Shown here one piece after another: positions 18,610 through 54,248 of a stretch of 64,000 bases of DNA. Under the pieces are notes generated by a model. It had not been told where the DNA came from. It worked only from the letters and a program-made list of their open reading frames with translations, and made no database searches. The stretch covers positions 1,426,001 through 1,490,000 of the forward strand of contig MU004183.1 of NCBI GenBank assembly GCA_010093605.1, in the 5' to 3' direction. Each line of letters begins with the position of its first letter. The first letter of the stretch is position 1. Source of the stretch: Lophium mytilinum. Its lineage: Eukaryota; Ascomycota; Dothideomycetes; Mytilinidiales; Mytilinidiaceae. Made by a program: the position numbers and the translations under genes.

Positions 18610-19215
18610 AGCCATGTCAAATGCTCCGTATCAACTGAGACGATGTGGAGTACAACGGGAGGCGAAGGCTTTGCAGACGATGGATCAGCAGTTTTTCTAG
18701 CTGCAGGAGTCGAGCTGCAAGCTGGGGGGGGCCAGCTGCAGTCTTCTTAGCGAACTCACTCGTATCAAAGGCTAATTGGCAACGGAGACGATGCGGAGTG
18801 TGATAAGGGGAGGAGGGTTCGCCGACGATGATGGATCAGCAGATTCTCTAGCTGCAGGAGTCGAGCTACAAGCTGGGGGGGGGCCAGCTGCAGTCTTCTT
18901 AGCGAACTCACTCGTATCAAAGCCCAATTGGCAACAGAGACGATGCGGAGTGCGACAGGGAGACGAAGGCTTTGCAGACGATGGATCAGCAGACCCTCTA
19001 GCTGCAGGAGTCGAGATGCAAGCTGGAGCAGACCAGCTGCAGTCCTTTTAGCGAGCCCAGCTGTATCAAAGGTCGATTGGCAAACGTAAACGATGCGGAT
19101 TGCATGAAGGAGGCGAAGGCTTTACAACCGATGGATCAGCAGATGCTCTAGCTGCAGCAGTCGAGACACCAGCCGGAGGGGACCGAGTATAGTCGTCTTA
19201 GCGAGCTCAATAGTG
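18610..19215. repeat. 150-bp tandem minisatellite, four copies
   Basis: The anchor CGATGxGGAxT recurs at 18641, 18789, 18941 and 19091, a spacing of 148, 152 and 150 bp. Each unit also contains GATGGATCAGCAG, CTAGCTGCAGxAGTCGAG and CTTAGCGA. The first three copies are most alike and the fourth is more diverged. Confidence 0.88.
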
Positions 19216-19501: not shown

Positions 19502-22500
19502 ATGCCTTTCATCAACTCCCGTGTCGATCAATCCCATGACATCTTATCGAGTGCTTCGAATCTTCAAAACAAGGATTTTGAACTTCGTAGTCTCGTGGCA
19601 GGTGTATGGGATCTAGCGTCAGCTGAAGCAGAGGCTCCGGCAGAAGCCGACTGGGTGCAGTCCCTCAATCCGGGCTCAGAGTCGGTGGTTGGTGAGGATG
19701 AGCGCACGCCAGTGAAGCCGGAAGATTACGCCTCTGGAGGGAAGTATCGCTGTAAGTGTACACAAATGATGCCGTGTTTTGCCTGATTTGCGTACTTACA
19801 AGAATCTAGCAATCGTCAAAATCTTTGCGCAATACGAATATTCGAGTGGGTGGGCTATGGGAACTGGTTGGCTAATCCGCCCTGACCTAATGGTGACGGC
19901 TGGCCACATCGTCTTCAATCATTCACCCAAGTTTGGTCGAGCATCTGTTATCAAAGCGTACATCGGGTACACTGGTAAGAAGTCTATCGGAACTCCTGGC
20001 GTTCAGTTCCGCACTGGTGTCAGATGCGTCACCACAGCAGCCTGGCTCGGTCGAAAAGGGGCCAAACCATTCGATGTAGGATTTGTCAAACTTAACAAAC
20101 CCTTCGAAGGCATTGAGCCAATCGAGTTTATGGAAACTCCTACCAGTGGTAATGATGAGCTAGGAGTCGTCGGCTATCCTGGTGATCTCGAACATGATGG
20201 CGAAAGAGGCGCCCTTATGCATGAGATGTTCATCCCAGTGAGTGAGCCGGTTGTCTGAAGATTTAACTTATTGCTAACAACGCTTAGCAAGAGTTCAACC
20301 TCGCCGAGCAGGACTTGAGAATGTTGGAGTATACCATCGATACCTTCGGGGGTACGTGAATACCCTAAGCTTTGCTATTTGGCTTGCTGACCTTCTGTGC
20401 TTTAGGTAACTCCGGATCTCCGGTTTTTCTGAAAAGAGGCTCTTCCACGAAAGCTGTCGGAGTTCACGTTTATGGCGGCACAATCAATTCTGCTTCTGTC
20501 ATCGGCAAATGGGGCAATCCATTCGAAGATTATGTGTCCGTCATGAGTGCTCAGATCCCAGCTGATGGCGGTCTCCATTACTTGCCGGCTTCTCGCTCAA
20601 CGGCCGTTAGTCTCTCCGGCGATCCCAAAGACAGCAAGTCATTATACACTCCGCTTGAACATGGAGGGAAATACTTGTCAGACCAAAAGTCGCAGAGCTT
20701 TGGATCGTTCATCGATGATGTGTGGAGCAACTACACGACAACGGAGAGCAGAAATGAATGGAACAACAACTGGAGCAGTTACGACTACAACAAGAGTCAA
20801 GAATCTCAGGATACAAACAGTCGAACCGATGCTGACAAAGTTGTTCGCTTCCGAGACGGCGGCGAGACTTCCCGGGACCACGCTTCCCAGGACCACGCAT
20901 CCCAGGACCATGCATCCCAAGAGCACGCATCCCAGGACCACACATCAAGCAAGGGAAAAGTCACTAAGACGGTAGAAACACACACCACGACAACGACTAC
21001 TAAGATAGAGATAAATGACGGTGATGGGAGTGTCGAAGACTCAAATGGGGGGCTTGCTCGCGCAGATAGAGGGGGCACCGAACAGAAGTCTGGCGGTTCT
21101 AGTAGCAGGTCAGTGATTTCCTCGAAAGGCTCGACACAAGCGCTGACAGATACTAGCCAAAGCCAACTTGAGGACTCTGGTTCAAGTAGAACTGTGCGAC
21201 AGTCCGGGGAAGATACCGCACGGTCGGGGACGGACTCTGTCAACAAGGGCTTGTCGAGAACGGGTGAACAAGCTACCCATGATGGTTCAAGTAGCGCCTT
21301 GAATCAGACACGTCAGGACTCATCTCAAACCACGAACCGGGGCTCAAACCAGTTTGGCGGAAGTACCCAGAATGAAAACCAATGGTTTGGAGGACACAGC
21401 CAAACCTCGAATGGGTCCGACGGTTCAGGCAAGGCGCACAATACAGACACGACATCATCCCGAAGCCAACAAAATACAAACACGATATCGTCTCGAAGCG
21501 AACAAACCGCAAATCAATCAAGTGCGACAACTACTAGCAAAGGATTCTCGAGTAGCTCCACCAATCAGAACAGTCAGCAGAACAGTTCTTCTGGTAGGAA
21601 GGCCTTGTCCGATCATTGTTTCTCTTCCCAAGCAGGTTCAGCGATTTGCGCTGGCTGTGGAAAGAGTCAAAAAGATTGCTCTTCATCTGGCGCAATATAT
21701 GCTGACTTCAGACAACCTCAATCTACTACAAGTATAGGCATATCGGGGAGCAAGAGTGAGCTGACATCGGCGAGAGGTGGATATTGGTCTTCACAAGCGG
21801 ACACTAGAGGCTACTATCAGTCTCATGATACGACATTAGGTACGCTGGATGGAACGGATCCCAGAGGCTACTATGAGTCTCGGAATACGACGTTAGGTAC
21901 GCGAGATGGTGCGCGTGATCTCTGCATTGCGTGTGGACAGCCCGCCTGCCCATTTTCGCAAGGCATATTCCGGGACTTTCAACGACACTTCCCTGTTTCA
22001 GAGAACAAGGAAAACTTCCCTTACTTTTGGCCTGGATGTCTGCCACCAAATGAATTACACTCCAGGTAAGGCTTTGTCTTTCCAACATCCCTCTAACGCG
22101 ATTCAAGCCTTTTAAGCAAGCTTCCTAGATACAGTAACGCACATGACTGACTTGTACGCTCACAGTGGAACTGAAAGCTTTACATTGTTCGGCCCCAAGG
22201 GTCAACAATCGATCTATACCGAGCAGATGGCGGTATGGCAACTAGGCACCGCCCCTTGGCACCCTCCTTCCACAAAGGATGTGAAACTAGGACAACTTGG
22301 GTGTTTCAACGATGATGGGACTTGGCAAGTCATTGCCCAGATAACAGATCCAAAGGAAATCGCAAAGGCGAACCAAAGAGCCTACAACCGCCAGAAGCTT
22401 CTCAAACCCTTTTCCACTGGCGTTCCTGCCATCCGCTCAGCCAGCAACACCGAATGGAGCGCAAGAATCACTGCAAATGTCACGAGTACTGACCTTTCAA

Positions 22501-23203
22501 CTAACGCGAAGGTAGAGTAAGTATTACTTCCAGCTAAAGGAGTTGATCATGGTGACTAACGAGAATCAGCGCTGTGCTACCTGTGAACGCCGAGGTCAAA
22601 TTCGCCCTATCTAAGAAAAATTCCAAGGGAGCAATTCTGGTAGTAGAGAACCCCATTACCAAAACATGGTTCGAGTCAGGAGAGACGTCGTTCAAACGAT
22701 GGATCGACGACAACGTAGACGCACTCAAATCGAACTGGGCGAAGGAGCTGGACCGAGGCTTGTGGCTCATCAAATCTCTGATCACAACGAAAACGGCGTA
22801 TATCAGTGTTCTCAACAGTCAGAAGAGTGAGCTCACTATTGGGGGTCACGTGACAGTTCCGGGATATGGAGGTGGAGGCGCCAATTTCGGAAAGACAAGC
22901 TCAATGAAGGTTGATGGGTGGGAAACCCATACATCCGGCCCTGTAAGTTTTCAGTCAGTGAAAACATAAGTAATAGCTTACTAAGTCGTCACAGGATGAA
23001 CAAAGAATCGTGTTCATGTCCGCTTATCGTTATGACAAAGGGAAGCTATGGGGGGTAAGCAATTGAATCAGTGGCAAATATAACGGAGATACTAACATCT
23101 ATAGATAAACCAAATTGAAAGCGCATTGACAGAAGATGAAGAATGCATTGCCATGATAGATAGAGATGGAAATATTATCCGTAATCCCTGGGTCGTCAAT
23201 TGA
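19502..23203 (+). CDS. V8/trypsin-like serine protease fused to a gasdermin-like C-terminal region
   Basis: Eight-exon model: 19502-19751, 19810-20237, 20288-20351, 20406-22065, 22166-22516, 22570-22942, 22995-23054 and 23105-23203, giving 1094 residues. All introns are 50-100 nt, GT-AG, and phase-consistent. Residues about 84-290 are an S1-family protease: GTGWLIRPDLMVTAGH places His116, FDVGFVKL places Asp172, and GGNSGSPVF places Ser250. VGVHVYGG puts His268 where staphylococcal V8 protease has its Glu-specificity His. Residues about 300-800 are a Ser/Thr/Gln/Asn-rich linker with two Cys clusters (CAGCGKSQKDC and CIACGQPACPF). Residues about 801-1062 resemble gasdermin N-domains in motif order: KLGQLGCF, ILVVENPITKTWF, NWAKELDRGLWLIKSLITTK, a Gly-rich loop, and RIVFMSAYRYDKGKLWG. 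A 32-residue acidic tail ends the protein. There is no signal peptide. The protease call is firm; the gasdermin call is inference from motif order. Confidence 0.8.
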
Positions 23204-45799: not shown

Positions 45800-48479
45800 T
45801 TACGGTGGATAGGTAGAAGTTAGATTATACGTCTCTCTTATGGTACCCAAGTCACGCATAATATTACTAGCGCTCTTCCGTCCTATTTTTCCCTCGCCTG
45901 GAACGTCCTTTTCAACAATGAGTAACCCTTGCTGGATTAGATTCAAGAATTCGCAGAAGAAATTGGAGTAGAGAACGTCAGACCGCATTTCGTTGATGAA
46001 CTGTTGTTTCATACGCGTCAGTAACACCTTCAACTTGATGTGGAAGAGACCATGTAAAAGGAGCAAGAACTGACCTTCGTGACCGATTCTTTTACCTTGG
46101 GCGTCCGCGTAACTGTCCCAGCGTCTTCATCCTTTACAATCGTAAAGAATGTATCGGTCTTCATACCACCCCAGAAGTCATCGAAAGCCAGTCGCTTTTT
46201 CTTGAATTCATCGACGTACGCCCAGCCGCCAAAATACCACGCAATAAACTCAAGATAGACGCATCCGAGCGTCCAAATATCGTAGGATATACTAATATCC
46301 GGGTTTGAGAGATCGCACTCGGGCGCTCGGTATGAGGGCGAGTTTGGGACCGTTCCACTACGAGTCGACACGGAGTGTTGAGTGCTGAAGTGAGAAATGC
46401 CGAAGTCTGTGATTTTCAGGATGCCTTTCCCGCCCTTGGGGTCTGGAAACCAGAGAATATTTTGGGGTTTGATGTCGCCATGGCGGCCATACAGTCGGAC
46501 GCTATTCATTCCTTTCATTCGTTCCCCTTGAGTAGCGATCACTTCCTTTTTCCATTTATCGTCTGGCAGAGAATTGGAATGATGCAGGTGAAGGAGAGAA
46601 CTTCCTGAAGTGGTGTTGTATTTGTGGATTTGTGAGAGCCCCTCTGCCAAACCTTGGCACTGTTCCACTAACCATAGAACGGTGTCTCTGTCTTTGGGTG
46701 GGTTGGAGTTTTTGAACTTCCAATATCCTAGGAGATCGGCTTCGGCCCAGGGAAATATGAGATGGTATCTTCCGGCTTGTTCATATGTTGCTAGCAGGGT
46801 TATGAGATGAGGATGGGCGTGGGCAGTGCTAAAGCTCTTCAATATAGCAACTTCCCGCTTAAAATCTGCTTTCTCAACCGAGGACAGCTCCTTGACGGCA
46901 AAAATATCTGCTGGATGCTTAGATCCCTAGCTCCCAATCAGCATCTATGATTTGGACACTTTGTAATAGATGCAACGGACCACATACCTCTGCCATGGGA
47001 AATCCGTGCTGATCGGAAGGAATCTCGACCCTATACACCTGGCCATTTCCCCCCGGAGGCGCTGCTATATTGTAAGAAGTGAATGGCAGAACGGTTTGAG
47101 GCTGGAGGCGGTAATGCGACACGCGCCTTCGGCCCTTGGGTGCAAAATAGGGAGCGAGAAAAGTCCACTGAGTCTCCTCGAAACGAGAGATGGTGCTGCT
47201 TCTCCATTTTTTGAAACATCGACATGGTGGAGACTCTGGGGCAGCATTCTTGCGCCGCATTTCTAATTTGAAAGGTTTCCGCGGTTTCGAAAGAGCAAGA
47301 GGGAGATCGGCATCACAGACGCCTTCCTCGACGAAAGAAGAAATTCTGTGGGATCTCTCAAGCAGTAACAAGATGGCAAATATCTTCCGGTACGATTTTT
47401 GTCTGGAAGGCATCTTAAGATGTTCATCCTCGGTGTCCGAACTAACTTCATAATACTGGAAGTCGCCACAGATTTTGGATGCCACTTCCTGGAGATTGGC
47501 TTTCGGTTTTCCCGGTTGAGGACGCTTGCGCAGCCATGAATCGTACGATTCGAGCGCCGGTTCGACTGTCTTGGGGATAATTAATTTCAATAACTTAGGG
47601 GTGGGCATGAATCCTCTGCTTTGGCCTTTCCAGTGATTCACCTTGACCGCTCCGAACACTTGATCAAGCAGTCGCGCGAGGGATACATCATAGCTCGAGG
47701 CAAGTGGAAATGAATCTGTCTGCCTTCTTTTGAAGTTTCGGTGGGCTGCCTCATCGCCCAGATCTGTGATTACTGTAATCGCTGTAGTCTCACTGAGCGC
47801 AGGCCGGCCGTGTTTAGAATCAGTTACCACTAAGAATTCCTGCCCGCGGATTGCAAGCCGGGCTGGGTCGTCAGCGGTAAGCGCATCCCGAGGACCAGGA
47901 GTGGTATATTCCTGAGAATGCTAAGTTATCAAATCGGCGCACAAGTTTGAGTTGCCTTACTGTGGGTCCTAGGTCTTCTTCGTCCAATTCGGGGTTTGGA
48001 TGTTCTATATCGCTGCCGCCGTCCCCTTCTGTCAGGCTAAGTCTATAGGGATCACGGTCCAAGTCCGTGGTGTCTATCGAAACGTTCTGAGTTGAGGCTT
48101 CTCTAGGCTGCTTGGATGTTGGCGCTTCGTGTTCATCGTCGAGTTCGATCGATACGACCACGCCAGGCGGAGTAACTGTAGCCTTGGGGAATTTGGCCCG
48201 CGAACGTGTGGCTAGCTCTGGCTCGAAGGCTGAAGAATGTTAAGACTACTATCTCCATTTTGTGGCTGGTTGTCTACCTAGAGGTGGTAAAACTTTTGGG
48301 GCTCCGTTCTGAGTCATCGCGCCGTTCATCGCAGCGACAAGGTCGTCAGCGTCCTCAAGGACGCCGACAGCCTTGCCGATACTTAGGCTCTCGAGGGACT
48401 GAAGTGGCTTAAATTGCGGCGTAAGTTCACCGGCACGGATTTTCGAGCCAGCAGGAGAACTATCCAGTAAGAAAGACAT
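45800..48479 (-). CDS. Protein kinase with a long N-terminal extension
   Basis: Five-exon model (minus): 48278-48479, 47961-48229, 46988-47911, 46075-46926 and 45800-46033 (or 46027), about 825 residues. The first three introns are 48-61 nt and clear; the last is only 41 or 47 nt, so its ends are uncertain. Residues 1-157 are polar. Residues about 200-440 form an N-terminal domain shared in outline with the kinase-HET protein at 50101 (KIFAILLLLERSHRISSF, EETQWTFLAPYF and VLPFTS). The kinase domain spans about residues 440-740: GGNGQVYRVEI loop, FAVKEL lysine, HGDIKPQNIL catalytic loop (Asp616), TDFGIS (Asp639), YRAPE and DIWTLGCV. All catalytic residues are present, so it is probably active. 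A minus-strand frame upstream (48383-48907) might supply a further N-terminal exon, but I found no good splice join. Confidence 0.75.
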
Positions 48480-50100: not shown

Positions 50101-53100
50101 ATGTCTGAATCGACAGACATATCGGAAATCCTGGTGCATGGAACTGTGGAGAGCCATTTCGACAGCCGACCTCAAAAGTTCGTGCCCGAAAGAAGCGTCG
50201 TCGACGATGTCATCAACAGCAAGTCTATTCTTGACAATGCCATCAACAGGGTCTCCATTCTGGAACAGATGGACGTAGACGAGCCGATCGAAGAAGAACA
50301 CAACCTGCTCGTTGACTACATCTTAAGAGGGGCGAAAAAGATCTTTGCCATCTCAATTAGTATCGGCCTCGAGGATGCGCCGCTGCGGAAAGCCATGTCA
50401 TTTTTCAAAGCTAACGGCTTCAACGATGAAAAACTTCCAATTACCCATAGACAATTAGACCACCTTGCTTCTCTCGAGATTGGCGTGAAAGTCCGCAAAA
50501 TCTGGTCTAGAGTCAGAATATCCCAATTTTTTGACAAACAGTGGGAATTCTCAGCACAAATCTTTTCGACAGCCGAATTCAACCATGATCTCCCACAGAA
50601 ATCCATCCTTCCCTTCACCTCAATGAAAAAAGTCGCCAAGGGCTCGTTCGGTGGGGTCTACAAAACTCAGATCCATTCTGCTCATTTTGTTGACCCACAG
50701 AAACCGGTGAGGATCTGCCGCACCACGTCGTTGCGGCGTTTGCTGATTTAGAATAGGGGACACCTTGCCCTAAATTTTTCGCAGTCAAGAAATTGGAGCC
50801 AGAAAACGAAAGTGACAGCCAGAAAGTGGCGAGAAATTGGGACATCGAAGTTAAAGCTCTAAGGAAAATGAACAACCTCAATCAAGATCACATTGTACGG
50901 TTTATCACCGCCTTCCGCCGCCGTGGTAAACCGGATCATGACGATCACACTAGCATTGAACACTGGTCTGAACACTGTCTCATATTCGAATGGGCTGAAG
51001 GCGGTAGTCTCCGTGACTACTGGAAAAATAACCCTCGTCCTTCCCTAACGGCATCGTTGGTGAAAGCTACGATCAAGCAGCTTCTTGGTCTCGCGGGAGC
51101 GCTTGAGAGAGCTCACAATCTCAACAATACTGGCGCGTCATATCGCCACGGTGATCTGAAACCAGAGAACATCCTTTTGTTCCCGGACGGTAGTGAAATA
51201 GGTATCTTTAAGATTGGCGACTGGGGTGTGGCCAAGGAGCATAACATCGTCACTGAAATGCGCTTTGGCAGTACTGGAGCTGAATACGGAACTCGTCGGT
51301 ACGAATCGCCAGAGGTAGAGACAGGCGTGAGGCTGACCTTCTTGGACCAGGCGCCGAAGCGCCGATCCCGCCTCTACGACATATGGGCCATGGGCTGCAT
51401 CACTCTTGAGTGGATCGTCTGGCTCCTTTATGGCTGGGACGGACTGAATACATTCAATCAAAACGTTAAAGGGGAGGTTTCTAACCACTCTCCGTTTTAC
51501 CAACTCACTGTCAAGAACAGCAAAAAGGTAGCTAGAGTGCACGACATTGTGGTGCAGTGGTTGAAACATATGGCTCGGGATCCCGTCTGCCAGGTGGGCA
51601 CGACCGCACTGGGAGATCTCCTCGAAGTGGTCCAGAGAGACCTCCTTGTGGTCAAGCTTCCACGAAGAATGGGCTCCACCTTAGGCATCACAGATTCCCA
51701 ACAACCGTTTACGATACCTACCTCCACACCCCTGAATCCAGACGAAACATTCTCGCCGGAGCCTCCCAGCCCACTAGAGCAGTCAACACGAAGCATCCCC
51801 CCGATCCCGTCAATTGACATCACCCCGGCAGCAGAGGCCCCAGCAGCAGCGCCAGAGCCGATCAGGATTCCCGTGCAGCAGGAGCCAGAGTCTGAAGGCC
51901 CGGCCCGCGTTCTCTCAGACGAATTTCGCCAAAGGTTGGATTTCATCTACTGCGAGGATGTGGATGAGGTGGACAACTACTGGTTCACGGCTAAGTCACC
52001 CTTACCCGCTCCCGTAGATCCTGATGGTAGCTCTCTGCGATCCTCAGCTCAGGATGGGTCTGAGTATTACACGACCGAGAGAACGCGAAGTGGGCGGTCA
52101 TCGAGGGATGGCCTATCTAGTACTAAAGGCCTCGTGGTACCCGATCAAGAGAAGGTGGACTATGCACACCCAAATCTTGACAACAAATGGGAATTTGACG
52201 TGGACAATGATTTCGCCTCCAGTCTGTTCTCCAGCTTCAGAAAATCCGGTTCATTTGAGGTAGCTCAGCCTCTCAAGTTATCAAGGCTCTGCAGAGAATG
52301 TCTAGATATGAAGGAAAGACTATGGAAACCAGCATTCAGCGTCACCTATGACCTGCCAGGTCTACGTATAAGGTCCGTTCGTAAGGAATGCGACTTGTGC
52401 GTCTTACTTTGGAATACCTGCGAGCGACATGGAGGCACGAAATACCCAACTGTACAGCTTGAGAAAAACAAGTTCTCGAAGTTTTCGCTCACGATGAATG
52501 GAGGCGAGCATTCCGTTCTCTCCATATTTCGGGCTCTAGGTAAGTCTTCTCCAACTCTGCAATTATCGGCGCGACACCTCTACTGACACACATAAAAGTA
52601 GACTCCAAAATCCCAACCGATAACAGTATCCCCATTGGCTTTGCTAAGCTTCCAGAAGCGGGCGAACATACTCATCTCGAAGTTATTCGACAATGGCTTA
52701 ACAACTGCGATGTCAAGCACAGTCACTCTGCATACCAACCCGCCACACAAGAAGACAAATCCCGGGACATACCAACGAAGAGGTTACCAACAAGGTTGAT
52801 TGATGTTGGCAAGTCTGACGACAAGACAGTTCGTCTCTGGGAGACCGGCCCCAAAGACATAGGAGAATGGATCGCTTTGTCCTATCAATGGGGCGCACCG
52901 CCGCATTTCGATACCAACCGCAGTAACCTTAAAAAGCATATTAATGGCATAGATTTCGAGACTCTACCGGCTACTTTCAAGGACGCTGTGATTGTCACGC
53001 GCGGTCTGGGCATCCGCTATCTCTGGATTGACTCCTTGTGCATTATCCAGGGGACGGGGGGAGACTTCAATCAAGAGGCCAGGCGTATGGAAGATGTGTA

Positions 53101-54248
53101 CAGTGGTGCTTATTGCGTAATTGCTGCTAGTTGTGCGACTGGCCACTACTCGGGCTTCCTCCAGGCGCGGAATGATAGGGACTACGTTACCCTGCAAAAT
53201 GAAAATCAAACGCCCTTCTACATCTGCCAGGCGATCGACGACTTCAATGCCCATGTATCGGAAGGGGCCCTTAATCGTCGCGGTTGGGTGCTTCAGGAGC
53301 ATGCTCTCGCTCGTCGATCAATCTTCTTCACAAAGCATCAGACATACTGGGAGTGTGGTGACGGGGTGCGATGCGAAACCATGACGAAAATGAGAAAGTA
53401 AGTGTCTTTGTGCCGCTGTTGGCGACAAACTCCTCTTTCAAACCTTGCTAATCCTGTATAGTAACCTGGCTGCCTTACTAGGCGACTCTAGTTTCCCACA
53501 AATTGTCGAAAACGCTCCGCAGGGAGAGAAAATCTTGCGTTATCAAGACTTCTACAAAAGATATTCTCAGCTCGGTCTTTCGAACCCCTACGATCGACCC
53601 ATGGCAATCGATGGACTCCAGCGACGTCTTCTTCGCACTATGAAGGCAAAGGGAGGGTTCGGAATGTTTGACGAAGAAGGCAATAAAGGTTTTCTTCGCC
53701 GAAGCTTGTTATGGCACCGCCTGGAACAAGACTCAGAGGGCAGACCAGTCGCAAATACCCTATCACGCATTAAGTTTCCTGCTGACCGTACCATCTCGGT
53801 GGTCCCTTCGTGGTCGTGGATGGCTTACACAGGCGCAATCGACTTTTTCAAGCTCGATTTTGGCGGTTTTGAGTGGGAGGAAATCCGGCCGCCCTGGTCA
53901 CGGAGCCCCAGCAACGGGCTTCAATCTGACCGAGGGGACTCTGTAGCATTGACCGCGGTGGTCAGGGGCTTTGATCCAGATGCTGCTGTGGAAGGAGAGG
54001 GCATACTCGTAATTGACAGTTTGGGAGGATCAGAGCAGTCCAAAACTATGTGTGTGGTGTTGGGGATTGAGAAGGATGTTCCGACGAAGAAAGTCAAGTG
54101 TGCGGAAGACAAAATTCACTTCTTCCTAGTTGTCACTCCCACGGGAGGACTGGATCGTAATGGGAGCAAGCGCTTTGAGAGAGTGGGAGCAGGTTATTTG
54201 CCTAGAAAGTGCATTGGACCTCCTGGCGACACTATCGTCATTCATTAG
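50101..54248 (+). CDS. Protein kinase fused to a HET domain
   Basis: Four exons, 50101-50706, 50757-52539, 52599-53397 and 53462-54248, give 1324 residues; introns are 50, 59 and 64 nt and all close in frame. Residues 1-180 are an N-terminal domain like that of the neighbouring kinase. The kinase domain spans about 180-480: AKGSFGGVYK glycine loop, FAVKKL (Lys213), RHGDLKPENILLF (Asp335), then IGDWGVAK where DFG is DWG (Asp357 kept), and YESPE. A Pro/Ser linker follows (about 500-700), then a Cys-rich block (SRLCRECLD and KECDLCVLLWNTC). The HET domain (about 885-1010) has IALSYQWGAP, RYLWIDSLCIIQG and RRGWVLQEHALARRSIF, ending with VVPSWSWMAY. Kinase and HET on one chain suggest phosphorylation-linked control of an incompatibility response, which is inference. 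Confidence 0.88.

Follow-up and report, generated by a model that had tools for sequence, protein, structure and literature searches.

A Lophium mytilinum gene model joining a glutamyl-endopeptidase-like S1 protease to a probable gasdermin-type pore domain

A gene on the plus strand of the Lophium mytilinum genome encodes a predicted protein of 1094 residues in which an S1 serine protease is joined, through a long low-complexity linker, to a C-terminal region that is very probably a gasdermin-type pore domain. The gene lies within a window of 64,000 nucleotides (GenBank assembly GCA_010093605.1, contig MU004183.1, positions 1,426,001 to 1,490,000 of the forward strand), and coordinates below are positions in this window. 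A preliminary description, made from the letters of the DNA, had proposed a single polypeptide with an S1/V8-type protease and, by motif order, a gasdermin-like C-terminal region. The features of the gene are as follows.

19502..23203, plus strand: whole gene, eight exons, 1094 amino acids (spliced translation; colinear ortholog P0001)
19502..19681, plus strand: possible propeptide, residues 1-60, ending at Glu60 (suggested by alignment to 7uxg; role presumed)
19748..20563, plus strand: S1 protease domain, residues 83-300, exons 1-4 (Pfam Trypsin_2 and 1p3c matches)
19905-19907, 20073-20075 and 20411-20413, plus strand: codons of the catalytic triad His116, Asp172 and Ser250 (spliced translation)
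20564..22063, plus strand: low-complexity linker, residues 301-800 (composition of residues 361-640; two-species alignment)
21644..21715, plus strand: Cys module copy 1, residues 661-684, CxxCG...GAIYADF (translation; conserved in P0001)
21920..21988, plus strand: Cys module copy 2, residues 753-775, CxxCG...GIFRDF (translation; conserved in P0001)
22166..23116, plus strand: probable gasdermin-type pore domain, residues 801-1066, exons 5-8 (PDB matches, calibrated profile test and motif register; the structure model indicates compatibility only)
23117..23200, plus strand: C-terminal tail, residues 1067-1094, proposed inhibitory peptide (position; analogy with microbial gasdermins)
23132..23143, plus strand: Glu-rich EDEE (E1072, E1074, E1075), at which a Glu-specific protease might cut (sequence; predicted specificity)

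Removal of seven GT/AG introns on the plus strand joins the eight exons (19502-19751, 19810-20237, 20288-20351, 20406-22065, 22166-22516, 22570-22942, 22995-23054 and 23105-23203) into 3285 coding nucleotides, and splicing and translation reproduce exactly the intron at 22066-22165 and the three triad residues given in the preliminary description. The ortholog P0001 (BDZ99DRAFT_479970, 1132 amino acids) of Mytilinidion resinicola aligns colinearly with the Lophium protein over roughly its first 1070 residues. The alignment crosses each of the seven splice junctions, that between exons 4 and 5 included, so that the fusion is present in two species and the proposed single polypeptide is borne out. 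Mytilinidion resinicola is a member of the Mytilinidiales, in which Lophium is also placed. Identity between the two proteins is 194/218 (89.0%) in the protease, 230/265 in linker residues 361-640, with a further 62 gap columns, and 257/266 (96.6%) in residues 801-1066, the most conserved part of the protein. In the tail (residues 1067-1094), 13/26 positions are identical and 29 columns are gaps, with divergence beginning after SALTE; this difference reflects either an error in the M. resinicola gene model or fast change of the proposed inhibitory tail. The one-chain model rests on the genomic sequence and on P0001, whose gene model may itself be a prediction, and we regard it as very probable that the protease and the C-terminal region are encoded as one chain.

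The protease domain is securely assigned by sequence to the S1 family, as a glutamyl-endopeptidase-like member, in agreement with the S1/V8 type first proposed. Pfam recognizes Trypsin_2 over residues 101-259 (E 5.7e-12) and Trypsin over residues 93-277 (E 5.9e-7), and the catalytic triad is complete, with His116 in TAGH, Asp172 in FDVGFVK and Ser250 in GNSGS. A PDB sequence search with the protease returns ten matches at E<=0.01. The glutamyl endopeptidase 1p3c leads them (E 1.2e-7), and nine of the ten bear the name of glutamyl endopeptidase or V8 protease. The blocks YTIDTFxGNSGS and VGVH are common to the protease and 1p3c, and within them lie Thr245 and His268, positions that we take to form the glutamate-binding pocket of glutamyl endopeptidases. 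Cutting after glutamate is thus the specificity predicted from this match. The serine protease 7uxg aligns over residues 50-268; the stretch SVVGEDERTPV, which falls opposite the N-terminal part of 7uxg, resembles the mature start of glutamyl endopeptidases. Residues 1-60 may therefore be a propeptide ending at Glu60, a role we presume from these enzymes. The P0001 protease also matches the PADLOC model LmuA weakly (E 0.0014).

That the C-terminal region is a gasdermin-type domain is highly probable, and the earlier reading of its motif order is now supported by the top PDB matches, a calibrated profile score and the register of motifs in alignment. Against 177,635 distinct PDB sequences, the region returns three matches at E<=10, the top two being bacterial gasdermins (E 0.022 and 0.028), and both of the two matches of a two-species profile are those same proteins (E 0.012 and 0.015); E-values of 0.012-0.028 are weak as sequence matches. 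Fungal gasdermins were gathered by running the PADLOC bacterial gasdermin model on the Lophium genome, where it matches an open reading frame (ORF) on C14 (E 0.0025), which in turn matches RCD-1 (E 1.2e-5) and has 58 database relatives. Alignment A2 holds 52 of these 58 (P0017, P0022, P0025, P0033, P0042 and P0052 were left out), and because its profile matches both RCD-1 (E 1.1e-23) and the HET-Q1 pores (E 2.7e-14), it represents a true fungal gasdermin family.

A domain-wide comparison that forces use of the whole gasdermin core, with shuffled sequence and pieces of other reading frames as its null, gives a score of 28.2 against the fungal core at a permissive gap cost (shuffle mean -3.6, standard deviation 5.5), a value reached by 0/2000 shuffles and by 0/97 overlapping other-frame pieces. 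At two stricter gap costs, 8/2000 and 15/2000 shuffles reach the score, and the pieces remain at 0/97. Against four bacterial gasdermins, the score is reached at the three gap costs in turn by 1/2000, 13/2000 and 135/2000 shuffles and by 0/97, 0/97 and 3/97 pieces. When the fungal-core score is calibrated, the Lophium region reaches a z-score of 5.4 (0/400 shuffles) and P0001 reaches 5.5. A held-out fungal gasdermin scores 38.8 and three of the four bacterial ones score 5.8, 3.6 and 4.0; nine unrelated proteins, with no MACPF/CDC protein among them, lie in the range -1.8 to 0.7. With a stricter gap cost, the values are 3.4 for the Lophium region (2/400), 4.5, 3.9 and 3.6 for the bacterial gasdermins, and -1.3 to 1.0 for the unrelated proteins. 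Because these z-scores are similar, the region appears to be about as distant from fungal gasdermins as bacterial gasdermins are. MAFFT alignment with 27 of the 58 fungal relatives (A4) places several motifs of the preliminary description in register (PP..VKLGQL/PPEGPIRLGSI, TEW/TNW, IVFMSAYR/FVFAFRLR and YDKGKLWG/YNKGALYD). The region keeps 11 of the 39 positions that are conserved in at least 85% of the fungal family, where the composition-based expectation of 2.35 is an unfair null, since alignment seeks matches.

The linker between the two domains carries short tandem repeats (20870-20946 and 21440-21506) and differs between the species by insertions and deletions; Ser, Thr, Gly, Gln and Asn abound in its residues 361-640. 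Farther along the linker, the two Cys modules, with the common pattern CxxCG ... G(A)I(Y/F)xDF, lie about 90 residues apart and could serve in metal binding or self-association. Beyond the pore domain, the tail of about 28 residues begins ESALTEDEEC; microbial gasdermins carry short inhibitory C-terminal tails, according to extracts of PMC10989679.

Searches for relatives, which depend on shared short words and miss distant relatives, recovered the same pairing of domains in M. resinicola only. A full-length protein search with region 801-1094 yielded P0001 only among 3244 candidates, and the C-terminal region alone gave none at E<=0.001 among 565 candidates. None of 139 stretches of genome contigs was confirmed, nor any of 27 viral contig stretches. 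A second copy in the Lophium genome was found by neither a C-terminal-region search nor a protease search; one match (L005, E 0.017), which sits between glucosyltransferase-like and MFS-like reading frames (labels assigned by eye), was rejected on inspection. The same genome does encode two or more fungal gasdermins that stand alone, one of them P0002 at the C14 locus (about 1626855-1632000) and another at C16:1091182-1091934. On one side of the C14 gene lie a TPR ORF, identified by match, and then an S8-type ORF, identified by eye and about 3 kb away, and the C16 gene adjoins a stretch with patatin-like and S8-type (subtilisin-type) motifs, also labelled by eye. The usual gasdermin/subtilisin arrangement and the fused gene thus coexist in one genome. 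The C14 gasdermin is the single match of the PADLOC gasdermin model in this genome, the model being silent both at the fused gene and at the C16 gasdermin. Within the window, a 150-bp unit is repeated in tandem (3.9 copies, 18632-19209) just upstream of the fused gene. A Pfam scan covering ten ORFs of the window identified two HET-domain ORFs at 34888-36510 (E 1.6e-26) and 52544-53398 (E 1.6e-28), some 12 kb and 29 kb away from the fused gene, and two Pkinase ORFs at 46033-46926 and 50757-52583, one of them directly before the second HET ORF.

We propose, with cautious preference, that the protein is a self-triggered protease/gasdermin switch encoded by one gene, for which we infer cleavage, activation and pore formation from the domain arrangement. 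It would condense the death unit of protease and gasdermin known from fungi and bacteria into one gene and draw its protease from another family. The single polypeptide would carry the S1 protease of glutamyl-endopeptidase-like type, perhaps made as a zymogen, and continue through a linker of about 500 residues with two Cys modules to the pore domain, which is closed by some 28 residues of tail. Before activation, this tail would keep the pore domain inactive. The trigger would probably be clustering of chains through the linker, leading to protease maturation, and sensing would most naturally fall to the linker, which changes fast and bears the two CxxCG modules. The matured protease would then cleave adjacent chains on the C-terminal side of glutamate, the simplest site being TEDEE past the last predicted strand, and the released pore domains would insert into the membrane and cause cell death. 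A fuller version is somewhat less likely than not: linker and Cys-module self-association would lead to cuts both after Glu60, for maturation, and in the Glu-rich stretch, for pore release, so that an entire pyroptosis-like pathway would be contained in one gene with no need of a second.

Several results weigh against a gasdermin assignment of the C-terminal region. The C-terminal 294 residues match no Pfam family at cut-off, no PADLOC model and no gasdermin model of NCBIfam, with a single weak NCBIfam match far below cut-off. Profile comparison by hhalign is not significant (probability 1.5% against the fungal family and 0.8% against the bacterial family, the two families matching each other at 83%). 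Smith-Waterman comparison with the own-genome fungal gasdermin is equalled by 30/1000 shuffles, and local hmmsearch gives 0.8 bits with the fungal profile, reached by 112 of 3146 reported shuffles (5000 made), and 8.7 bits with the bacterial profile, reached by 2 of 3400 reported shuffles. The domain-wide signal is strongest at the permissive gap cost and weaker at stricter ones, and in the bacterial comparison at the strictest cost the reversed sequence outscores the real region. An initial version of this test with free-floating profile ends was null (524/1000 shuffles reaching the score for the fungal profile and 763/1000 for the bacterial one); we judged it badly designed, and the whole-core redesign postdates that null, so the call rests on the positive and negative calibration controls. 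MAFFT with all 58 relatives (A5) shifts the helix region and the Gly-rich loop relative to A4. Single-sequence AlphaFold gave no usable model of the region. A second model, assisted by a multiple sequence alignment (A4, picked by eye) and biased by it, speaks to compatibility only; with a predicted local distance difference test score of 57, it has similar Z values for gasdermins (RCD-1, bacterial and animal) and for MACPF/CDC-type pores. The region might be another beta-rich domain (a remote pore former of MACPF/CDC type, for instance, or an unknown fold) whose motif order is gasdermin-like by chance. MACPF/CDC-type pores fill rows 1-5 of the structure comparison (Z 7.7-8.5, at least equal to the gasdermins), and the EaCDCL pore 9ccp aligns over 173/253 residues. 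Gasdermins nevertheless make up 10 of the 50 rows, and three of them (8jyz, 162/214 residues aligned; 8sl0, 193/228; 9a84, 194/233; root-mean-square deviation 7.7-8.0) cover a larger share at a smaller deviation than most MACPF rows. The PDB ranking by sequence, obtained without gasdermin input, also puts bacterial gasdermins first, and the calibrated test groups the region with real bacterial gasdermins and apart from its unrelated controls. A different fold is, on these grounds, unlikely.

The junction between the two parts admits a further alternative, namely two neighbouring genes: a protease gene ending at 22069, with the fourth intron unspliced, and a pore-domain gene beginning at the ATG at 22143. 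Both frames exist, as unspliced exon 4 does stop at 22069 and the frame of exon 5 does contain this ATG; the one-chain splice is seen in genomic DNA only, and the protein-search matches include no Lophium protein over the C-terminal region, lengths of 516-601 residues being outside both searches. Yet the supposed genes would be separated by a mere 73 bases, the donor and acceptor of the fourth intron are standard, exon 4 protein conservation with P0001 continues up to the donor site, and the M. resinicola model, although it may be predicted, joins both parts at the same junction. A product starting at 22143 would be some 300 residues long, a length covered by the C-terminal-region search, which found none. 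No Met occurs in frame between residues 294 and 822 of the Lophium model; in P0001, positions 677 and 725 are Met. Two genes are very unlikely. Even if the architecture is right, the activator could be external: the protein might be a sensor or bait cut by other proteases, or its protease might trim other targets while the gasdermin-type domain serves as a membrane dock. A linker that is repeat-rich and changes by insertions and deletions is bait-like, subtilisin-type ORFs (labelled by eye) lie near the other gasdermins of the genome, and the cut site in the protein's own chain is a candidate only. The protease, however, retains its full triad and its high identity between species, and fungal gasdermins are mostly genetically linked to their protease in the portions of PMC10197012 that treat them, so that we consider external activation rather unlikely.

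Gasdermin-type domains kill cells in animal, fungal and bacterial immunity, and fungi usually encode the protease and the pore in two genes. Links between gasdermins and proteases in fungi and bacteria have so far been drawn largely from gene neighbourhood; a natural fusion, if true, would be direct physical evidence that the two form one functional unit. The protease family here, S1 and glutamyl-endopeptidase-like, lies outside the S8 and CHAT partners reported for fungi in the available parts of the reviews. The usual domain order would also be reversed, so that the pore domain must work behind about 800 residues or be cut free. The protein would then provide a single-gene case for how gasdermins are held off and released, with a testable cut site, zymogen control and self-association. 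The literature searched describes no protease and gasdermin in one chain and no S1 partner for a fungal gasdermin, although a mention in the primary fungal gasdermin-protease paper is possible. The Lophium protein falls outside the definition of a protease/gasdermin pair, which has a separate S8 or CHAT gene, and it probably belongs to the gasdermin family without passing every test.

Several known systems resemble parts of this architecture. Glutamyl endopeptidases such as 1p3c and V8 protease share with the Lophium protein the protease domain, the triad and the S1-pocket region; they are secreted bacterial enzymes without a pore domain. HET-Q1/HET-Q2 and the related fungal Q2-like pairs of Podospora and other ascomycetes likewise link a serine protease genetically to a gasdermin-type pore protein that ends in a short tail. 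Two-gene protease/gasdermin clusters are described as functional units in the sections of PMC10197012 used here, and HET-Q1 loses 40 C-terminal residues, by the accounts in parts of PMC10197012 and PMC10989679. The protease of such pairs is, in the same partial accounts, mostly an S8 subtilisin-type or caspase-like CHAT enzyme on a separate polypeptide, whereas the Lophium protease is of the S1 family and precedes the pore domain within a single chain. The preliminary description had placed the HET-Q1 protease in a gene next door; this is incorrect, since passages of PMC12881547 identify het-Q1 and het-Q2 as idiomorphs, which occupy a single locus as alternatives. RCD-1 of Neurospora crassa, according to the same passages, is not controlled by cleavage and acts when two alleles meet, unlike the proposed Lophium switch. 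Bacterial gasdermin operons, which combine bGSDM with caspase- or trypsin-like proteases, supply the best sequence matches of the Lophium C-terminal region, and trypsin-like proteases occur among their genes (PMC9612521, in part). These are separate genes, and the four bacterial gasdermins examined are stand-alone ORFs of 233-289 amino acids. Fusion of a trypsin-like domain to an immune protein is likewise found in variants of the bacterial defence proteins HamA, Avs1a and LmuA, as set out in excerpts of PMC12799240; there, the trypsin-like domain is fused to a defence enzyme, HamA for example, and acts on a separate pro-nuclease, whereas in the Lophium protein the proposed partner and substrate is a pore domain carried on the protease's own chain.

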